From a virus, in the IMG/VR virus record IMGVR_UViG_3300009285_000037, positions 1 through 24,712 of that record: 24,712 nt of DNA; one strand, given 5' to 3'. Position numbers and translations under genes: made by a program. The notes beneath the pieces were generated by a model. The model was not told the DNA's origin, ran no database searches, and saw only the letters and a list, made by a program, of their open reading frames with translations. Position 1 is the stretch's first letter; each line of letters begins with the position of its first letter. This document shows, piece by piece, positions 3,389 through 24,712 of the stretch.

Positions 3389-3711
3389 GTTTGCTCTTGG
3401 ATCGCCTCTGCCTGTGCGTCGCACGCAGACAGGTGGCTGAATTGAATGAACGCGAGTGAGTTTGTGTTCGTTGCGCGCGGCGCTCCGAACGATTGAAGGA
3501 TGGTTCCGTCGTCATAGACTAGCGAAATATTGGCAATGTTCTGAAACGTGACTTCGGTAACAAACAGACTGCCGCGTACTTGAACTTTGGCGGATTTTGA
3601 AAGGCTGCTTGCTTCGATCACCAAACAATCACGGTATGCGCCCTGCACGAAACATCTGCCGCGTAAGTTGATGGCGCCTTTGCCTTCGGGGGGGGTATTG
3701 ATTGGACTCAT
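3385..3711 (-). CDS. hypothetical beta-rich protein (108 aa)
   Basis: ATG 3711 follows GGAGAAACCAGCAA, the shared ribosome-binding module; the longer frame to 3903 runs through palindromes and another gene and is rejected. The protein alternates short hydrophobic strands (VQVRGSLFVTEVTFQNIANISLVYDDG), suggesting a small beta barrel. The C-terminus (HLSACDAQAEAIQEQT) comes from a palindromic repeat at 3408-3434. No family recognised. Confidence 0.68.
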   Translation of the reverse strand: MSPINTPPEGKGAINLRGRCFVQGAYRDCLVIEASSLSKSAKVQVRGSLFVTEVTFQNIANISLVYDDGTILQSFGAPRATNTNSLAFIQFSHLSACDAQAEAIQEQT

Positions 3712-3740
3712 TTGCTGGTTTCTCCTATTGATTGATTGAA

Positions 3741-3782
3741 CCGCGAGAACGCCTCGCGGAAGACCTGCCTGCGCAGGCAGGT
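3741..3782. repeat. two adjacent palindromes between accessory genes
   Basis: CCGCGAG/CTCGCGG (3741-3759) is followed at once by a perfect 20-bp palindrome ACCTGCCTGCGCAGGCAGGT (3763-3782). The second is the most symmetrical member of the dispersed family. They fill the gap between the SLOG-like gene's stop and the next start. There is no T-run. Confidence 0.75.
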
Positions 3783-3784
3783 GA

Positions 3785-4327
3785 CTAAATAAAAGATAAT
3801 TGCGCGGACAACCACTGCCAGCATTGAAAACCCATGAACTGAGATTTGACCCAGGAACCGGCACAACCGCGCGGGCTGCCTGGCATGGGATTGGAAAAAG
3901 CAAAAACCGGAATGCCGCGCTCTACTGCAACACCAGCGACTTTGAGCGAGCCAACCCCAGGACTAAAAAAGACGGCTGCGGATGCGCCTGTGAGACCTGC
4001 CACGGAACGGGACATGAGACGGGCGACCATGGGAACCTGCAAACCACCACCGGCCAGCCATGACACGGACCCGCCCATTTTTGCGAACTGCTGAACCTGG
4101 CGGACGGCTGAACCCGACCAGGAACCGGCCCCGGACTGAGCGAAGGCTGCAAACACGCGAAGCTGCGAAAACGATGAGACACCAACAGACTGTATTACCT
4201 GCTGATCTGCGCCTGTGGCACAACCAACAGTAACGGACTGGCCGGAACTAAGAATTGCCTTTACAACCTGGCCCACGATGGGGGATGATGGGAGCGATCG
4301 GGAACCGCCGAAGTAAACGCTAGACAT
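3785..4327 (-). CDS. SLOG-like nucleotide-binding protein (180 aa)
   Basis: Residues 5-12 (YFGGSRSL) and 33-42 (TVGCATGADQ) give the first strand and glycine-rich loop of a SLOG/LOG-type Rossmann fold, which in known families binds nucleotides or nucleotide-derived signals. Further on come SGSAVRQVQQFAKMGG, LMSRSVAGL, and VFFSPGVGSLKVAGVAVERG before a final strand IPVFAF, consistent with a lone SLOG domain and no effector. ATG 4327 has only a weak ribosome site. Base use is unusually GC-rich and repetitive in Gly, Ser and Val codons compared with its neighbours. A role in signalling or anti-phage response is possible but not shown. Confidence 0.68.
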   Translation of the reverse strand: MSSVYFGGSRSLPSSPIVGQVVKAILSSGQSVTVGCATGADQQVIQSVGVSSFSQLRVFAAFAQSGAGSWSGSAVRQVQQFAKMGGSVSWLAGGGLQVPMVARLMSRSVAGLTGASAAVFFSPGVGSLKVAGVAVERGIPVFAFSNPMPGSPRGCAGSWVKSQFMGFQCWQWLSAQLSFI

Positions 4328-4408
4328 GGGACACCGCCCATGGAAGGGGGAGCACAGAAAGAAACCGCATTACTAGAACGCAGATGAAATGCTCGAATGA
4401 TGCTGACA

Positions 4409-4594
4409 TTATGAACCTGCCTTTTTTGTTTGGCTGAACTTTGCTAGCCAGATTTCTTGAACTTTGTTTGGGTTGACGGATGGATCAAGGGCGGCTGCTG
4501 CCTGCGCCAAGATTTGCGCCTTTGTTTGGGTTGGCGCTGTGATTGCCCTGTGTATTAGGGATCGTGCTGCTGCTTGCTGGATTGATGTTTTCAT
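4409..4594 (-). CDS. small hypothetical protein with its own promoter (61 aa)
   Basis: ATG 4594 is 6 nt downstream of a good -10 box, so the transcript is probably leaderless; the frame can be extended to 4654 but that would run through the promoter. The protein is helical and polar (MKTSIQQAAARSLIHRAITA, then QILAQAAAALDPSVNPNKV, then a basic end). It may be a small regulator, but no family is recognised. Its promoter carries the repeats also found at the divergent gene at 5388. Confidence 0.6.
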   Translation of the reverse strand: MKTSIQQAAARSLIHRAITAPTQTKAQILAQAAAALDPSVNPNKVQEIWLAKFSQTKKAGS

Positions 4595-14882: not shown

Positions 14883-15126
14883 GCTGTTCGGTGAACCTTA
14901 TTTGAAACTCTGGTATCTCATCGCCGTCATGGATTTCTGGAAATGAATCGTGTGTGAAAATGAAAAATACCTCTCCCCTGTTCTGGTCGTAACCGTTGTA
15001 GATGAATTGCGCGTCGGGTGGTAATCCTGCGGTTGTTTTCGTTTTTTGGATTTCATTGTCTTGCGTTATCATGCTGACAATCAATCCAAATGAGACATAA
15101 ACCTTTACAATTTTTCTAGTAGGCAT
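14872..15126 (-). CDS. small hypothetical protein between TerL and portal (84 aa)
   Basis: The ATG at 15126 overlaps the end of TerL, with AGGAG upstream inside TerL. A beta-rich small protein: IVKVYVSFGLIVSMI, GLPPDAQFIYNGYDQNRGEV, then FFIFTHDSFPEI and an acidic stretch. The pattern resembles a small uncharacterised phage protein often found by packaging genes. Function unknown. Confidence 0.72.
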   Translation of the reverse strand: MPTRKIVKVYVSFGLIVSMITQDNEIQKTKTTAGLPPDAQFIYNGYDQNRGEVFFIFTHDSFPEIHDGDEIPEFQIRFTEQHDN

Positions 15127-16606
15127 TGTTCATCTCCTGTAATACGTCCTGCTCCGGCTCTATGATGGTCGTTTCGGATGGCACATACCACTCGAGCTTG
15201 TCTAGTTCGGCGGTCATGGCGTCGGCTGTGATATGGTCGTCGTGTATAAGCTGACCATTGGCTCCGCGCGTGCCGTCCTTCACACCCCAACGCATGGTCT
15301 TGGCTGGCCCGATCAGAATTTCGCTTTCGCAGTTGGCGTATTGTTCGTCAACGATCCCGCTTGGCGCGCAGTCTCTGAACCTTCCTGTTTCGATCATGCC
15401 GATGAATGCGTATCCGATCTCGCTTTTGGTCTGTTGTGTGAACTTGACTGGAATTGTTTTGGTGGGGAATCGCTTGGTAGTCATTGCCCATAACCCCTCC
15501 CCTACTCCGGTTGAGTCTATGACGATGTACTGCGCGTTCCATGCTTCGGCTATGGCTTTGATCTTGCCGAAGATGGAAATATGGTTCTCTCCCTGCCATG
15601 CCTTGCGCTGCACTACTCTATAAGTTGGCGCTTGCAGGTCTTCGAGCGTGGACAGGTCTATGTCCACGATGTTGAGTGTGGTGTAGTCCCTGCCTGGATT
15701 GCCCATGCCGTCGAGATTCAGGAGTGCTTCATCCTGTCCGCCTACGTCGATTGTTAGTGCATAAATGCGACCGGGGACAGGAGACGGAAGACCGGGCTGA
15801 TCTCCGATCATCAGGGCGCGGCGTGCGGCGTTGAACATACCGGCTAGTTCGTCGATCTCCTCACAGAAGTATTGTGTCTTTACGAGTGGGTGCTGTCGGC
15901 CTAGTTTCTTGATTTCGTTGTCGATGAATGTGCCGTACGCGGGTACGATCTTGCGGACCTGGTCGGCATTGTAGATAAAGACTCGTTTGATCCCGTCCTG
16001 CTTTTCGAGCTCGAGTCCTGTTCTCATCTCCCTTGCTAATAGAGTCTTGCTTGTCCACGTTGTGCCTGTAATGAGCCTGGTTGCGTTCGTGCTCGCAACC
16101 ATGGGAGCGAATTTTTTATCGTATACGCTCGGCTCTATGTCCTGGGCTTCGTTGATGATCAGGGCAAGGCTTGCCGTGGCTCCTACCACGTTGGCGCTGC
16201 CGTCACCTGACAGGAAACTGACGACTGCATTTCCGATCATACGCATGAAGTCGGAGCGTTTCGACCAGAACATTTTTGTAATCAGGTTTGTTGAGAGTCG
16301 TTTCTCGAAGCGCATGATCGCATTGATCGTCTGCGGTTTGTAGGTTGGGTTGGCGACGACGATCCCCACGTCTCGATGTGCGAATAGATTGCAGAGGAAT
16401 GCCAGCAGGTTTCCGACAAGTTCGTCCTTCCCTGCCTGGCGTGACATGATGACGACGAACGTGAGTCCTTTTTTGTGAATGACTGAATCAATGATTGCTT
16501 TTGCCGGCGCGAGTTGATAGCTTCGCATGGTGATACCTCCGCCGCGTTCGGTGAACGAAGCGAAGTTCTTTGCAATGTGTTTGATCGTTTGCTTGATCGT
16601 GCTCAC
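15116..16606 (-). CDS. terL: terminase large subunit (496 aa)
   Basis: DNA-packaging ATPase and nuclease. ATPase: Walker A SRQAGKDE (55-62), Walker B strand LALIINEA (147-154) with catalytic E153, coupling motif TGTTW (180-184). RNase-H-like nuclease: D287 (ALTIDVGG), D364 (YIVIDSTGVGEG) and D456/D457 or D462 (DDHITADA) supply the acidic triad. Walker B has Asn152 where Asp is more usual. The start is GTG 16606, overlapping the preceding stop (GTGA) with GGGAGG 8 nt upstream. It docks on the portal encoded two genes later. Confidence 0.95.
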   Translation of the reverse strand: MSTIKQTIKHIAKNFASFTERGGGITMRSYQLAPAKAIIDSVIHKKGLTFVVIMSRQAGKDELVGNLLAFLCNLFAHRDVGIVVANPTYKPQTINAIMRFEKRLSTNLITKMFWSKRSDFMRMIGNAVVSFLSGDGSANVVGATASLALIINEAQDIEPSVYDKKFAPMVASTNATRLITGTTWTSKTLLAREMRTGLELEKQDGIKRVFIYNADQVRKIVPAYGTFIDNEIKKLGRQHPLVKTQYFCEEIDELAGMFNAARRALMIGDQPGLPSPVPGRIYALTIDVGGQDEALLNLDGMGNPGRDYTTLNIVDIDLSTLEDLQAPTYRVVQRKAWQGENHISIFGKIKAIAEAWNAQYIVIDSTGVGEGLWAMTTKRFPTKTIPVKFTQQTKSEIGYAFIGMIETGRFRDCAPSGIVDEQYANCESEILIGPAKTMRWGVKDGTRGANGQLIHDDHITADAMTAELDKLEWYVPSETTIIEPEQDVLQEMNNAY

Positions 16607-18358: not shown

Positions 18359-19058
18359 AGCCTTTGATCTCGTTCTCGTATTGGAGCACGACGCGCGTCG
18401 GGTAGTTATTGCCTGCTGGTGGTGCGGGCGGGAAAAGGATCTGATAGAACGTGGGCGAAATCCAATTGCAATCGACGGACCCGCTGATTCCTGTCACCTG
18501 TCCGCTGCTGGTGTATTGCCATAGGTAGACAGGCCCCCACCTGGTTTGGTCGGGGATGTAGCTCGCTGGCGGCGCGGGATATAGATCGGGGAACCACGGA
18601 TAGCCGGCTGTCCAGATGGGTATTTGCTTGAGCCTGGTCTTTTGGCTTTCCGTCATGGGGATTGGATCGAGAATGTTCTTGCGCGAGTAGATGAGCATCA
18701 GGTTGCTGAATTGTGCCTGTACATAATCCAGCCATGCAATGATCTGCGCTGCGGTCTCTCCGCCTTCTTCGATGTCGAGCGCGAGAACGTCTTTGGGTTC
18801 TATCACTGGCGCGATGGTTCTTACGAAATGTTCGGCTTGTCTGGCTGCGGTTGTGGCCTTGCGGTGAAAGTGGAATGCTCCCCTGAGGATGCCGTCTTGT
18901 TTCAGGTCGGCCATGTATTTCAGGAAAGTATTGTCTGTAAAATTGTCTGCTTCGGTTGCTTTAGTGACGACGAGCGCGGGTCTTGGCTGAACGAGCGCGA
19001 AGTCTGGTATCTCTTTCCAGTGGGACGTGTCGTAGGCTGGCGGCAATTTTATGATCAT
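18345..19058 (-). CDS. GH25 muramidase endolysin (237 aa)
   Basis: Glycoside hydrolase family 25: YDTSHW at 9-14 (D10), VVTKATEAD at 30-38, RGAFHFHR at 59-66, and the catalytic LALDIEEGG (D95, E97) followed by W and the late YLWQYTSSGQ with a Cys/Asp end (SVDCNW). It cleaves the MurNAc-GlcNAc bond of peptidoglycan to release phage. No signal peptide is seen, so it would need a holin; the XhlA-like protein is two genes on. A short C-terminal segment (YPTRVVLQY to YVPE) follows the catalytic domain and is repeated at the start of the next gene. Confidence 0.92.
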   Translation of the reverse strand: MIIKLPPAYDTSHWKEIPDFALVQPRPALVVTKATEADNFTDNTFLKYMADLKQDGILRGAFHFHRKATTAARQAEHFVRTIAPVIEPKDVLALDIEEGGETAAQIIAWLDYVQAQFSNLMLIYSRKNILDPIPMTESQKTRLKQIPIWTAGYPWFPDLYPAPPASYIPDQTRWGPVYLWQYTSSGQVTGISGSVDCNWISPTFYQILFPPAPPAGNNYPTRVVLQYENEIKGYVPE

Positions 19059-19621
19059 CCGTCCACCTCCCCCACTTCTTCCGTGGGTATTACCTTGTCG
19101 AAAAACACATTCACGACTTCTGGGTCAAAATCTTTACCCTTCAATCCCTGGATGTAGGTTTTTGAAAAGTTGTACGTGTGGCGGTCTCTGTGTGGTCGTT
19201 GGTTTGTAAGTGCGTCGTATACATCAGCGACAGCCAACAAGCGCGCGCCGATTGGGATCTGCTGGCCTTTGAGTCCATCAGGGTAGCCGGACCCGTCCCA
19301 TTTCTCGTGATGGTGGCGCACCATTCTGAGAATGGTCGGGTGATAACCGGCTTGTTCTAGGATTGCCCACCCCAGTAGTGAATGTTTCTGTATCTTCTCC
19401 CGCTCATCTGGTGTTAGTTTGCGGGGCAGGTTCAACAGGTCTTTGGATACGAGCAGTTTTCCGATGTCGTGAAGGTGTGCGGCTGTGTTGATGAGTTCTA
19501 TGTCTTTCAATTCCATTGCTTCGGCCAGCTTCACGGTGTACTCTGCGACGCGTGAAGCGTGGTGATTGTAATTGTCCCTCATCATGTCTATGATCGAAAG
19601 TATTTTGAATAATTGTTCCAT
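19055..19621 (-). CDS. HD-GYP domain phosphodiesterase (188 aa), first gene of the late operon
   Basis: A near-minimal HD-GYP domain: NHHASR (19-24), HDIGK (51-55), KH at 79-80, HHHEKWDGSGYPDGLKG (103-119), ADVYDAL, and RPHR in place of the usual RPYR. Metal ligands look complete. Known HD-GYP enzymes hydrolyse c-di-GMP, and some act on 3'3'-cGAMP. It has no sensory domain. In a phage it might lower a host second messenger or counter CBASS defence; that is inference. ATG 19621 is 10 nt from a terminator T-run and has no ribosome site. The gene overlaps the endolysin by ATGA. Confidence 0.9.
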   Translation of the reverse strand: MEQLFKILSIIDMMRDNYNHHASRVAEYTVKLAEAMELKDIELINTAAHLHDIGKLLVSKDLLNLPRKLTPDEREKIQKHSLLGWAILEQAGYHPTILRMVRHHHEKWDGSGYPDGLKGQQIPIGARLLAVADVYDALTNQRPHRDRHTYNFSKTYIQGLKGKDFDPEVVNVFFDKVIPTEEVGEVDG

Positions 19622-19630
19622 AGTGTGTAA

Positions 19631-19661
19631 ATAAAAAAGCCGCGTCATTTCTGACGCGGCT
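19631..19661 (-). terminator. intrinsic terminator between early and late regions
   Basis: On the minus strand AGCCGCGTCA (19652-19661) pairs perfectly with TGACGCGGCT (19638-19647) around GAAA, followed by TTTTTT. The HD-GYP start codon is only 10 nt past the T-run, so late expression needs read-through or a promoter embedded in the hairpin. Confidence 0.93.
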
Positions 19662-19663
19662 GG

Positions 19664-19750
19664 TTGCCTGCCTGTGCCGTTTGCACGCAGACAGGTGAAG
19701 GCAGTCGCCTTGTCCGCTCTGCGTGGCGCCATTGGCGCCAGGGAGAGCGG
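19664..19750 (-). promoter_or_regulatory. structured leader upstream of the late-operon terminator
   Basis: Two further hairpins precede the terminator on the minus strand. CCGCTCT (19714-19720) pairs with AGAGCGG (19744-19750), enclosing TGGCGCC/GGCGCCA. A dispersed-family hairpin lies at 19664-19696. Together with the terminator they form three stems in 120 nt. No clear promoter is visible in this stretch. Confidence 0.5.
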
Positions 19751-20799: not shown

Positions 20800-20971
20800 G
20801 GCTGGACTCCTGTTGTTCTTCCAGGTATTCCCTGGCTTCTGTTGTGGCCTGCTCGCTTGATGTGTAGGCTTTGCGGGTGACGTAGATTATATCTGCGCCG
20901 ATGGACACGATGCAGTAATGCTGCCGGCGCGGTGTGAGTTTGATCGTGAATGTGTAGGGCTGCATGTTCAT
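20768..20971 (-). CDS. small hypothetical protein (67 aa)
   Basis: ATG 20971 overlaps the upstream stop (ATGA), with AAGGAG upstream. Beta-strand pair (YTFTIKLTPRRQHYCIVSIG) then a helix (SEQATTEAREYLEEQQ) and a disordered end. A similar strand-then-helix plan is seen in the 72-aa gene at 2877, but I would not claim homology. Confidence 0.66.
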   Translation of the reverse strand: MNMQPYTFTIKLTPRRQHYCIVSIGADIIYVTRKAYTSSEQATTEAREYLEEQQESSHANPTHQPND

Positions 20972-21435
20972 TTTTCGATGATCTCCTTTGATTGAGAAAT
21001 GGTGTTTGACAACTTACCGTACTGCTCCCTGAATTGCTCGATCCACTTCCTGGCCTTCGGTGTGATGAACATTGCCGCGTCCCGCTCTACGATGTCCATT
21101 GCCTTGACGGCGAAGTCGATGGTCAACGCCATGCGTCGGTTGAGAATTGCAAGTGCCTGGTTCTCGTCGAACAATTCGCCCACGGCTTCCTTCACGTTCT
21201 CGAATTCGGTGAGTGCCTCATCCAAGTCTGATGTATGGCCGGTGATGTCCAGGAGGCGCTTGCCTGTGATGGCAGACAGGCATGTCGGGCACGTAACCTT
21301 TTCGCTATTGGCTGAGACTGTGCGCTTGTCATCACTTGACGCAACAGCGCCGCACAAGGCGAAGTACTTTTCTTTGGTGTCCGGGCTGTTCTCTGTTCTA
21401 ACGAGTAGATGGCGTATGATTGATTTGTTGTGCAT
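20968..21435 (-). CDS. hypothetical protein with Cys motif (155 aa)
   Basis: The N-terminal third has FALCGA and later CPTC (about 49-52), so three cysteines that could bind a metal with a His. The rest is mostly helical (LDEALTEFENVKEAVGELFD, IDFAVKAMDIVERDAAM, KARKWIEQFREQYGKL). AAAGG lies 10 nt before ATG 21435. Starts 38 nt inside the preceding gene. Function unknown. Confidence 0.7.
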   Translation of the reverse strand: MHNKSIIRHLLVRTENSPDTKEKYFALCGAVASSDDKRTVSANSEKVTCPTCLSAITGKRLLDITGHTSDLDEALTEFENVKEAVGELFDENQALAILNRRMALTIDFAVKAMDIVERDAAMFITPKARKWIEQFREQYGKLSNTISQSKEIIEK

Positions 21436-22144: not shown

Positions 22145-22551
22145 GGCGCACACTCCGCAAGCCGTAAGTATTTCGCATTGGCGTAGCCGGTGCCCTGGCT
22201 GGTGCTGAGTTTCCACCACTGCCCGCCTGCCTGTCCGCGGGACGCAGGCAGGAATGCAATAACTCTAACCTGCTCCCCATTGTGAAGGTAAGCCAGGACC
22301 TGCGCTCGCTCGTTCGGCTGGTCCCGAAGATGGAGGGATTGGATCGCGGTCACGGTGGCGCAGAGAGGCGCGGCGGTGGGGATCTCAAAAACTGTTCCGC
22401 TGGCGGGTTCGTCATTGTTGGCATGCACTATCGCTGTTTGCGTGGGTGTTGATGTGGCGCTTTTTGTGGCGGTGTCTGCCGGAATGGTGCTTGTCATGCA
22501 GGCAAGGGATGCAAGGATCGCGATCGCGATCGCGATTGGGATGATCTTCAT
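22141..22551 (-). CDS. lipoprotein with SH3b domain (136 aa)
   Basis: N-terminal signal with lipobox LASLAC (Cys18) predicts an exported, lipid-anchored protein. Residues 19-65 are a Thr/Ser/Pro-rich linker. Residues 66-136 form a bacterial SH3 domain (TVTAIQSLHLRDQP, YLHNGEQVRVIAF, WWKLSTSQGTGYANAKYLRL). SH3b domains often bind peptidoglycan, so surface exclusion or cell-wall attachment is plausible. The hydrophobic IAIAIAI run is encoded by a GATCGC tandem repeat near 22519-22540. A palindromic repeat (22222-22252) inserts PASRGQAGGQ inside the SH3 domain. Coupled by ATGA to the initiator gene. Confidence 0.82.
   Translation of the reverse strand: MKIIPIAIAIAILASLACMTSTIPADTATKSATSTPTQTAIVHANNDEPASGTVFEIPTAAPLCATVTAIQSLHLRDQPNERAQVLAYLHNGEQVRVIAFLPASRGQAGGQWWKLSTSQGTGYANAKYLRLAECAP
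22222..22252. repeat. in-frame palindromic repeat inside the SH3b domain
   Basis: Encodes PASRGQAGGQ in a loop of the SH3b fold. Its GGCAGGCGGGCAG end is identical to the copy in the small terminase gene. Confidence 0.8.
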
Positions 22552-23231
22552 TGGACTGCCTCCGGCACGACAAACTTTATCCTGATTGGTTCATCTGTTG
22601 CGAGAATTCCAGTCAGTTTACTTTGAGCCTGTTTTGCTATCCGTGTGGTTAGCCAATCGCTTGTGTAGCTGTCTGGTACTTCGACTGTCAAAATCTTTCC
22701 GTCAAAGGCGACGGCTTTTGTCGGCTCGATCCACTTTGTGAACTGGCTTCCGGTCAGTTCTTTTTGTAGTTCGGTTTTCAGTGTCGCCCAAATCATCCCA
22801 AAATCTATATTATTTACATATTGTAAATCTAAGGGTGAGTCTTTAATATTGGGTGGCACCATGTCACCCGAAGGAATGTCACCCGAAGGAATGTCACCCG
22901 AAGGAATGTCACCCCTTTCAAATGTCACCGGTGACACCATGCCACCCCCTGCCCCTGGGATGTACCATCGGTTTTGACCCTTTGGGCCTTGTCCGTCTGC
23001 TACAAGCGCGCCCATTTCTTCGAGTTGGCGCGTTAGTCTTTGGACTGTGCGCTCGTCGAGTCCCGTTTTCCTGGCTATGGTGAGGATGGCTGGGAAGATG
23101 TTTCGCCCGTTGTGGTCGGCGTGGTCTGCGTACATGGCGAGCACGAATTTAGTACTTGATCTAAATGACAAGCCGTTTATTTCGGTTGGGCATTCCATTT
23201 CGAGGACTAATGACATTGTTTTGACGCTCAT
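22548..23231 (-). CDS. replication initiator: winged HTH plus DnaA N-terminal-like domain (227 aa)
   Basis: ATG 23231 has AAAGGAG 8 nt upstream; the longer start at 23252 lies in a hairpin. Residues 20-95 look like an HTH_36/RepA-type winged helix (FRSSTKFVLAMYADHAD, IFPAILTIARKTGLDERTVQ, RLTRQLEEMGALV). Residues 107-124 are GDIPS repeats encoded by iteron-like DNA. Residues 147-200 match DnaA domain I-like sequence (IWATLKTELQKELTGSQFTK, WIEPTKAVAFDGKILTVEVP, SYTSDWLTTR), a domain that recruits DnaB helicase or partners. With no helicase or polymerase encoded, the element must use host replication machinery. Confidence 0.82.
   Translation of the reverse strand: MSVKTMSLVLEMECPTEINGLSFRSSTKFVLAMYADHADHNGRNIFPAILTIARKTGLDERTVQRLTRQLEEMGALVADGQGPKGQNRWYIPGAGGGMVSPVTFERGDIPSGDIPSGDIPSGDMVPPNIKDSPLDLQYVNNIDFGMIWATLKTELQKELTGSQFTKWIEPTKAVAFDGKILTVEVPDSYTSDWLTTRIAKQAQSKLTGILATDEPIRIKFVVPEAVQ
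22801..22936. other. candidate replication origin inside the initiator gene
   Basis: TGTCACC occurs at 22862, 22877, 22892, 22907 and 22923: exact 15-bp steps and then one of 16. The last forms the 14-bp palindrome TGTCACCGGTGACA (22923-22936). Directly beside it, 22801-22850 is very AT-rich (AAATCTATATTATTTACATA, then TTGTAAATCT) with a TTTACA/TGTAAA dyad. Iterons next to an unwinding element inside the initiator gene is the lambda O / ori arrangement. Confidence 0.65.
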
Positions 23232-23256
23232 GGTAGAATCTCCTTTGCTCATGGTG

Positions 23257-23916: not shown

Positions 23917-24507
23917 TTACTCGCTTGGAGTCGGAAAAGGGGAAGGGGTCGTGACCTGGGGCACGGTTGGGGTGATGGGGGAGGGGACTTGTGCTGGGTA
24001 GGTTCGGCTCTCGACTCTGCGGTCGAATACAGTTTCGCTGATGGGTGTGCCTTTGCTTTTCCATGCTGCGCCGATGTCGTCGCCGATGAAGTCGAGCACT
24101 AAGGCGACTGCATGGACTCCGCCTAGTATGCGGATCGCCCAAATCATGATGTCGATTTCTTCCTTCGTGAAGGCTATCCCTGCGTTGGTATAGGCTTCGA
24201 CTTGCATCCCGAAGCCTGCGGCTGCCAGTTCGCCGATCCCGCAAATTAGGATCATGGACATGGAGACGAACTTTTGCAGGTCTGTCTTTGCCATAAACTT
24301 GAAGATCAGGATGTAGGCGATGAAGGCTCCGCCTGTCAGTCCGAATCCGAGTGGTCGGTATATGGCTTGCTCATCTGGAAACGTCCACGCGAAGAAATTT
24401 AGCGTGTGTAATCCGAGAAAGGCGAGCACGGTTAAGGCGATTATTACTTTGCCTGCTCCGGCGAAGAATCGCCCGATTCCGCTGTCACTTGCTGGTTGGT
24501 TTTGCAT
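23917..24507 (-). CDS. four-helix membrane protein (196 aa)
   Basis: ATG 24507 follows GGAGAATCCAGCA. Predicted transmembrane helices at about 19-40, 52-72, 80-101 and 118-141, then a Pro/Thr/Ser-rich cytoplasmic or outside tail (PSPITPTVPQVTTPSPFPTP). No signal peptide or lipobox. It lies between the LexA-like regulator and the replication genes, a place where superinfection-exclusion or membrane-anchoring proteins are found, but no family is recognised. Confidence 0.78.
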   Translation of the reverse strand: MQNQPASDSGIGRFFAGAGKVIIALTVLAFLGLHTLNFFAWTFPDEQAIYRPLGFGLTGGAFIAYILIFKFMAKTDLQKFVSMSMILICGIGELAAAGFGMQVEAYTNAGIAFTKEEIDIMIWAIRILGGVHAVALVLDFIGDDIGAAWKSKGTPISETVFDRRVESRTYPAQVPSPITPTVPQVTTPSPFPTPSE

Positions 24508-24712
24508 TGCTGGATTCTCCTTTTGGCTCTATGGCGCCATGGCGACACAAGAGTAGATAGATTGAGAGCGGCACAGGCTTGCTCTTTATTCTTTTGATTT
24601 CCCCGTATTTTTCGAGTTTCATGTAGCAGTATCTGACTGCTGATGTAGAGCGTAAGCCTGTTGCTGCTTGTATGTTGCGGATGGTTGGCGGGATGGCATT
24701 CTCCCGCCAATA
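24485..24712 (-). CDS. LexA-type winged-helix regulator, C-terminal part (5' portion is at 119..1)
   Basis: Bases 24636-24712 repeat 1-77, so the real join is 24485..24635 with 1..119. This part holds the wing (YGEIKRIKSKP) and a tail of about 25 residues. The tail includes LCRHGAIEP, encoded by the palindromic ATGGCGCCATGGCGACAC repeat at 24531-24548. The last codons overlap the start of the next gene (24507) and also form its ribosome binding site (GGAGAATCCAGCA). The family match is to LexA DNA-binding domains only. The tail looks acquired from repeat sequence rather than conserved. Confidence 0.8.
   Translation of the reverse strand, partial: YWRENAIPPTIRNIQAATGLRSTSAVRYCYMKLEKYGEIKRIKSKPVPLSIYLLLCRHGAIEPKGESSNAKPTSK
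24636..24712. repeat. terminal direct repeat, copy at window end (circular overlap)
   Basis: Exact repeat of bases 1-77. Removing one copy gives a circle of about 24,635 bp. Confidence 0.93.

Follow-up and report, generated by a model that had tools for sequence, protein, structure and literature searches.

Origins of replication that lie inside the gene of their own initiator are already known from phage lambda, phage SPP1 and plasmid pSK41. In lambda, the central part of the initiator gene O contains the iterons and an AT-rich tract (PMC7466680). In SPP1, the initiator gp38 binds direct repeats inside gene 38, where an AT-rich unwinding element is also described, and replication has been reconstituted in vitro (PMC6316719). 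For the Rep protein of pSK41, an N-terminal DNA-binding domain, central Rep boxes, a linker encoded by the ori and a separate C-terminal domain have been reported (PMC5703833). As for DnaA, it is domain I of the E. coli protein that contacts the helicase DnaB; Trp6 serves in dimerisation, and Glu21 and Phe46 contact DnaB (PMC5448010).

The viral DNA analysed here (the window, 24,712 nucleotides in full length) carries the same 77 bp at both ends as a direct terminal repeat (1–77 and 24636–24712), so the record appears to be complete, with 24,635 bp. We propose that the window contains a lambda-style origin inside its own initiator gene, and we put the probability of this reading, taking binding, melting and the start of replication together, at about 0.88. 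That is, the gene at 22551–23252 would encode the phage replication initiator, with its linker DNA as the origin. The winged HTH, in several copies, would bind the GGTGACA half-sites, which form dyads at both ends of the array and direct repeats between them; the bound initiator would open the neighbouring AT-rich stretch, and the C-terminal DnaA domain I would recruit host DnaB or the loading machinery. The features are collected in Table 1.

Table 1 Positions of the features of the initiator gene and its array (window coordinates, except for the last line)
Feature	Position	Strand	Basis or remark
Gene of the proposed initiator (234 aa), with HTH_36 winged HTH, linker and DnaA domain I	22551–23252	-	
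Winged HTH, residues 9–97; recognition helix 67–80 including Arg72	22962–23228	-	PF13730 at residues 34–81; AF2 model
DNA of the disordered linker, residues 103–147	22812–22946	-	pLDDT below 50; takes in the array and some of the AT-rich stretch
C-terminal domain resembling DnaA domain I, residues ~151–228	22569–22802	-	PF11638; sequence matches 4tps, 8btg, 2e0g
Iteron half-site 1, GGTGACA	22862–22868	-	motif count
Iteron half-site 2, GGTGACA	22877–22883	-	motif count
Iteron half-site 3, GGTGACA	22892–22898	-	motif count
Iteron half-site 4, GGTGACA	22907–22913	-	motif count
Iteron half-site 5, GGTGACA, reading frame differs from 1–4	22923–22929	-	
Inverted half-site GGTGACA	22930–22936	+	palindrome with 22923–22929; 10-bp-offset dyad with 22940–22946
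Degenerate half-site GGTGGCA, dyad at the gene-sense 5' end of the array	22940–22946	-	
Degenerate inverted half-site GGTGGCA, dyad at the gene-sense 3' end of the array	22852–22858	+	
AT-rich stretch, proposed unwinding element	22800–22849	.	80% A+T (40/50)
Chimeric initiator ORF of L380 (positions in that record)	3490–4443	strand carrying the array	

The original prediction had described the gene product as a winged-HTH protein with a DnaA-N-like domain, and the Pfam scan agrees with it: HTH_36 (PF13730) matches with an E value of 5e-9 and 36.2 bits against a curated cut-off of 25, and DnaA_N (PF11638) with 9e-10 and 38.6 bits against 24.6. The PHROG matches are replication proteins only, among them phage replication initiators such as phrog_1032 (E 5.8e-16), and the weak Foldseek matches include 4pql, 4pta, 4pt7 and 5kbj, which are titled initiator or Rep-DNA. 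In the AF2 model two confidently predicted domains are joined by a linker of low confidence, and the array is located in the coding sequence of this linker, as had been claimed. The C-terminal domain does have the expected fold of DnaA domain I, aligning with that of B. subtilis DnaA (4tps_B) with a Z score of 15.2 and an rmsd of 1.5 Å over 82 residues. In the alignment with E. coli DnaA, Trp6 corresponds to Trp155 of the window protein; since Glu21 is replaced by Gln170, and Phe46 by Tyr196, a direct contact with DnaB is uncertain.

In comparison with the described systems, the term lambda-like proves right for the arrangement and wrong for the protein family. As in lambda O and its ori, iterons and an AT-rich tract lie within the initiator gene, and in both cases the iterons cross several reading frames. 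On the other hand, the iteron sequence is different, the N-terminus is of the HTH_36 kind with no detectable lambda O N-terminal domain (lambda O itself scores below zero bits against the HTH profile), and at the C-terminus there is DnaA domain I where lambda O has its own C-terminal domain. SPP1, compared by description, also combines direct repeats and an AT-rich element inside the initiator gene (gp38/oriL); it differs in having a loader (gp39) and a helicase (gp40) of its own. The Rep protein of pSK41, a member of RepA_N, shares the N-terminal DNA binding, the central position of the repeats in the gene, the origin-coded linker and the separate C-terminal domain; however, RepA_N (PF06970) has no match in the window protein at E 0.1, and DnaA domain I stands in the place of a DnaD-like C-terminus. 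The Rep protein of lactococcal phage TP901-1, whose record marks the replication protein as experimental, has a similar HTH_36-type match, just below the cut-off, but a DnaD-like C-terminus (DnaB_2), and a GGGTG-type array was not found in its rep gene. DnaA itself resembles the C-terminus of the window protein in domain I, both by sequence and by predicted fold, whereas neither its AAA+ domain III nor its C-terminal DNA-binding domain IV appears in the Pfam scan of the 234-aa protein, and the HTH_36 winged helix is placed at the opposite end. By the tests made here, the window protein would fall outside both the lambda O and the RepA_N families.

The array covers 22852–22946. Five copies of TGTCACC with steps of 15, 15, 15 and 16 bp had been claimed, and they are present exactly so; the 14-bp palindrome TGTCACCGGTGACA is also real, being completed by the inverted copy next to half-site 5. 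Two degenerate half-sites had been overlooked. With them, each end of the array is a dyad with a 10-bp offset, of the GGTGACAnnnTGTCACC / GGTGNCAnnnTGNCACC type, consisting of one exact and one degenerate half-site, and the relatives are built likewise. Over both strands of the window, TGTCACC occurs 11 times against 2.8 expected, with 8 as the largest count in 100 shuffles. Five copies of one 7-mer within 90 bp are found at this array only, and 100 order-3 Markov simulations gave no more than three. When lambda gene O was put through this unsupervised 7-mer count as a positive control, the result was ATCCCTC, which is the core of the lambda iterons as annotated.

The AT-rich stretch adjoining the repeats, which the original prediction had pointed out, has the highest A+T content of any 50 bp in the genome. 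In the first set of 30 genes, the 60-bp stretch that follows the array is AT-richer than the gene in 29 (mean 0.578 vs 0.471), and the upstream flank has a value of 0.457. In the scanned set, among the matches listed, the same 60 bp are AT-enriched in 163 of 184 genes (0.504 vs 0.430), and the upstream flank shows a smaller rise than the DNA after the array (0.464).

The homologues differ in what follows the HTH. Besides the window, the order of HTH and then DnaA_N, above the Pfam cut-off, is found in L003, L026, L047, L065 (which matches the Desulforudis MAG contig L089 in sequence) and L082. The C-terminus of L067 aligns with this DnaA_N group with no Pfam match, and L029 has a C-terminal DnaB_2. 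In L380, the same kind of HTH is combined with GGGTCAGA iterons and with the C-terminal domain of lambda O (53% identity over 83 residues). Judging from these proteins, the C-terminal module is exchangeable and may be DnaA domain I, DnaD-like or lambda-O-like, and the fusion of DnaA domain I to a phage initiator appears to be new. DnaB is present in none of the 11 records with a DnaA_N or a short C-terminus and in 5 of the 14 others; since many of the records are fragments, the tie between the DnaA_N type and the absence of DnaB is suggestive only.

We have scanned IMG/VR for arrays with three copies of GGGTGCAA or of GGGTGACA at gaps of 5–17 bp, which gave at least 120 and at least 119 records, respectively, and have called HTH-type ORFs by means of a profile for which 27 homologues served as the training set. 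Among the matches listed, 192 of 239 arrays are located at an HTH-type ORF, all but one of them inside it, while the background on the same contigs is one HTH-type ORF in 1766. As for the other 47 arrays among these matches, several resemble truncated or more divergent initiators, and the remainder consists mostly of collagen-like and other coding repeats. By itself, a GGTGACA array has no diagnostic value, since a first scan, limited to arrays with 15-bp steps, gave chiefly unrelated coding repeats. The motif GGGTCAGA, taken as a permuted negative control, was unfit for this use, with 14 of its 22 arrays (L373–L394) at HTH-type genes; by this association, it is itself a further iteron variant in HTH-type initiators, which have other residues at position 72.

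In the first set of genes, Arg follows 'VQ' when the motif has C at position 6, and not with GGTGCAA. The scanned set shares at least one record with the first set. Among its matches listed, all 92 of the GGGTGACA genes have Arg in the column of Arg72; in the 100 GGGTGCAA genes the residue is Tyr in 93, Asn in 4, and Ser, Lys or Val in one each, and Arg in none. The mutual information with the motif is 0.995 for this column, and no more than 0.60 for any other HTH column. When trees are built with residue 72 omitted, residue and motif agree in 188 of 188 non-redundant rows (matches listed). The best trees contain 10 to 17 motif changes. Four independent contrasts fall on supported branches, and each of them goes the way the rule predicts; with this number, a sign test cannot attain 0.05. 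Among the near relatives of the window, L050 has Tyr, and GGGTGCAA at every site. A mixed case is L005 (1715–2350), where the direct repeats are GGGTGACA and the dyads GGGTGTAA/TTACACC, position 72 is Arg, and the turn is longer by an insertion of one residue; this array is possibly caught between two specificities. Residue 72 was compared with two motif letters only, and other motifs exist; as the GGGTCAGA arrays go with other residues at this position, the code is wider than two letters. The rule appears to be new, and no earlier account of the motif, of HTH_36 origins or of DnaA_N phage proteins was found in the literature searched, which covered few subscription papers.

From these data one may sketch an HTH_36 origin code. 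The residue after 'VQ' (Arg72) would set the iteron (Arg for GGGTGACA, mainly Tyr for GGGTGCAA), the iterons would be carried in the linker DNA of the same protein, and the helicase-recruiting C-terminus would be freely swapped, with the window protein acting as an AAA+-free mini-DnaA that takes the host helicase directly. This generalisation is tentative, and we rate its chance at slightly less than even.

A tandem repeat within a gene may also be a matter of the protein, with GDIPS units forming a low-complexity linker and the DNA repeat being merely its consequence. Four of the copies indeed share one frame, GGTGACA arrays at other places in viral contigs are in many cases nothing but coding repeats, and L002 equals the window gene except for one 15-bp unit, as expected of slippage. 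Such an origin of the repeats is nevertheless very improbable, as the same gene has the motif inverted and in other frames, and as its 7 sites, against 1.3 expected, were reached in 0 of 300 synonymous shuffles. In most of the GGTGWCA-array genes, too, the motif count is above that of synonymous shuffles. Pseudomonas phage JBD68 repeats GGTGCAA at exact 22-bp steps, passing through frames 0, 1, 2 and 0. Among the 185 non-redundant genes of the scanned set (matches listed), 175 show at least two strand-frame states, the repeat spacing peaks at 21–23 bp, and sense-strand GGTGACA is missing from the single frame that gives TGA. That recognition helix and motif covary completely also argues against a mere coding repeat. 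In L003 (69% identity) the sites read GGTGTCA instead of GGTGACA, and further relatives have the motif at the same linker position, in both orientations and in differing frames; motif and spacing are conserved among homologues and the linker peptides vary, just as predicted. The repeats are under selection at the DNA level that exceeds the requirement of the protein.

Autoregulation is common in winged HTH proteins, and the binding of plasmid iterons often has both regulatory and origin roles. The array could accordingly be an operator, through which the protein represses its own gene or controls copy number, with the origin elsewhere. We consider this very unlikely, though slightly less so than the coding repeat: the sites lie ~300 bp into the gene, the AT-rich flank is conserved on one side, and the C-terminal modules are replication domains (DnaA_N, DnaB_2 and the lambda O C-terminus). 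Least probable of all is a packaging site, that is, a small-terminase-like HTH protein with pac repeats in its own gene. Packaging genes can contain pac sites, but the replication proteins are the only kind among the PHROG matches, the large terminase (15119–16606) is 6 kb away from the initiator gene, and in Pseudomonas phage vB_Pae_U2 the genes for a DnaC-like loader and DnaB lie next to the homologue.

A skew change near 22.9 kb had further been expected for the proposed origin inside the initiator gene. After detrending, the cumulative GC skew does not turn there, and in a 24.6-kb phage with coding mostly on one strand, this result is neither for nor against the origin. As to the step after opening, no DnaB gene was found in the window record, which makes the helicase of the host the likely target; we infer a recruitment of host DnaB via DnaA domain I at roughly even odds. 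The host itself is likely of the Chloroflexota kind, since Chloroflexota MAGs, one of them from Anaerolineae, are among the genome relatives found.

In phages known from sequence alone, the origins are mostly unmapped. Should the rule hold, many phages (each scan gave ~120 records or more) would allow both origin and initiator to be located from sequence, and exchanging one residue could swap the iteron specificity. The fusion with DnaA domain I would in addition offer a minimal system for asking whether domain I is able to bring a helicase to an opened origin when the AAA+ filament is lacking.

Several other genes of the window deserve mention. A LexA-type HTH protein of ~90 aa is encoded on the minus strand at 24485–24712 and continues over the junction, being whole on the circle only; it is possibly a regulator near the initiator. 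At 20971–21435 (minus strand) there is a weak YabA-like match (E 0.03, below the cut-off) in the same phage whose initiator carries a DnaA domain, and it is probably due to chance. Finally, the minus strand at 19058–19732 encodes an HD_5 domain protein (E 3e-34), which is a surprising cargo given the small size of the phage.
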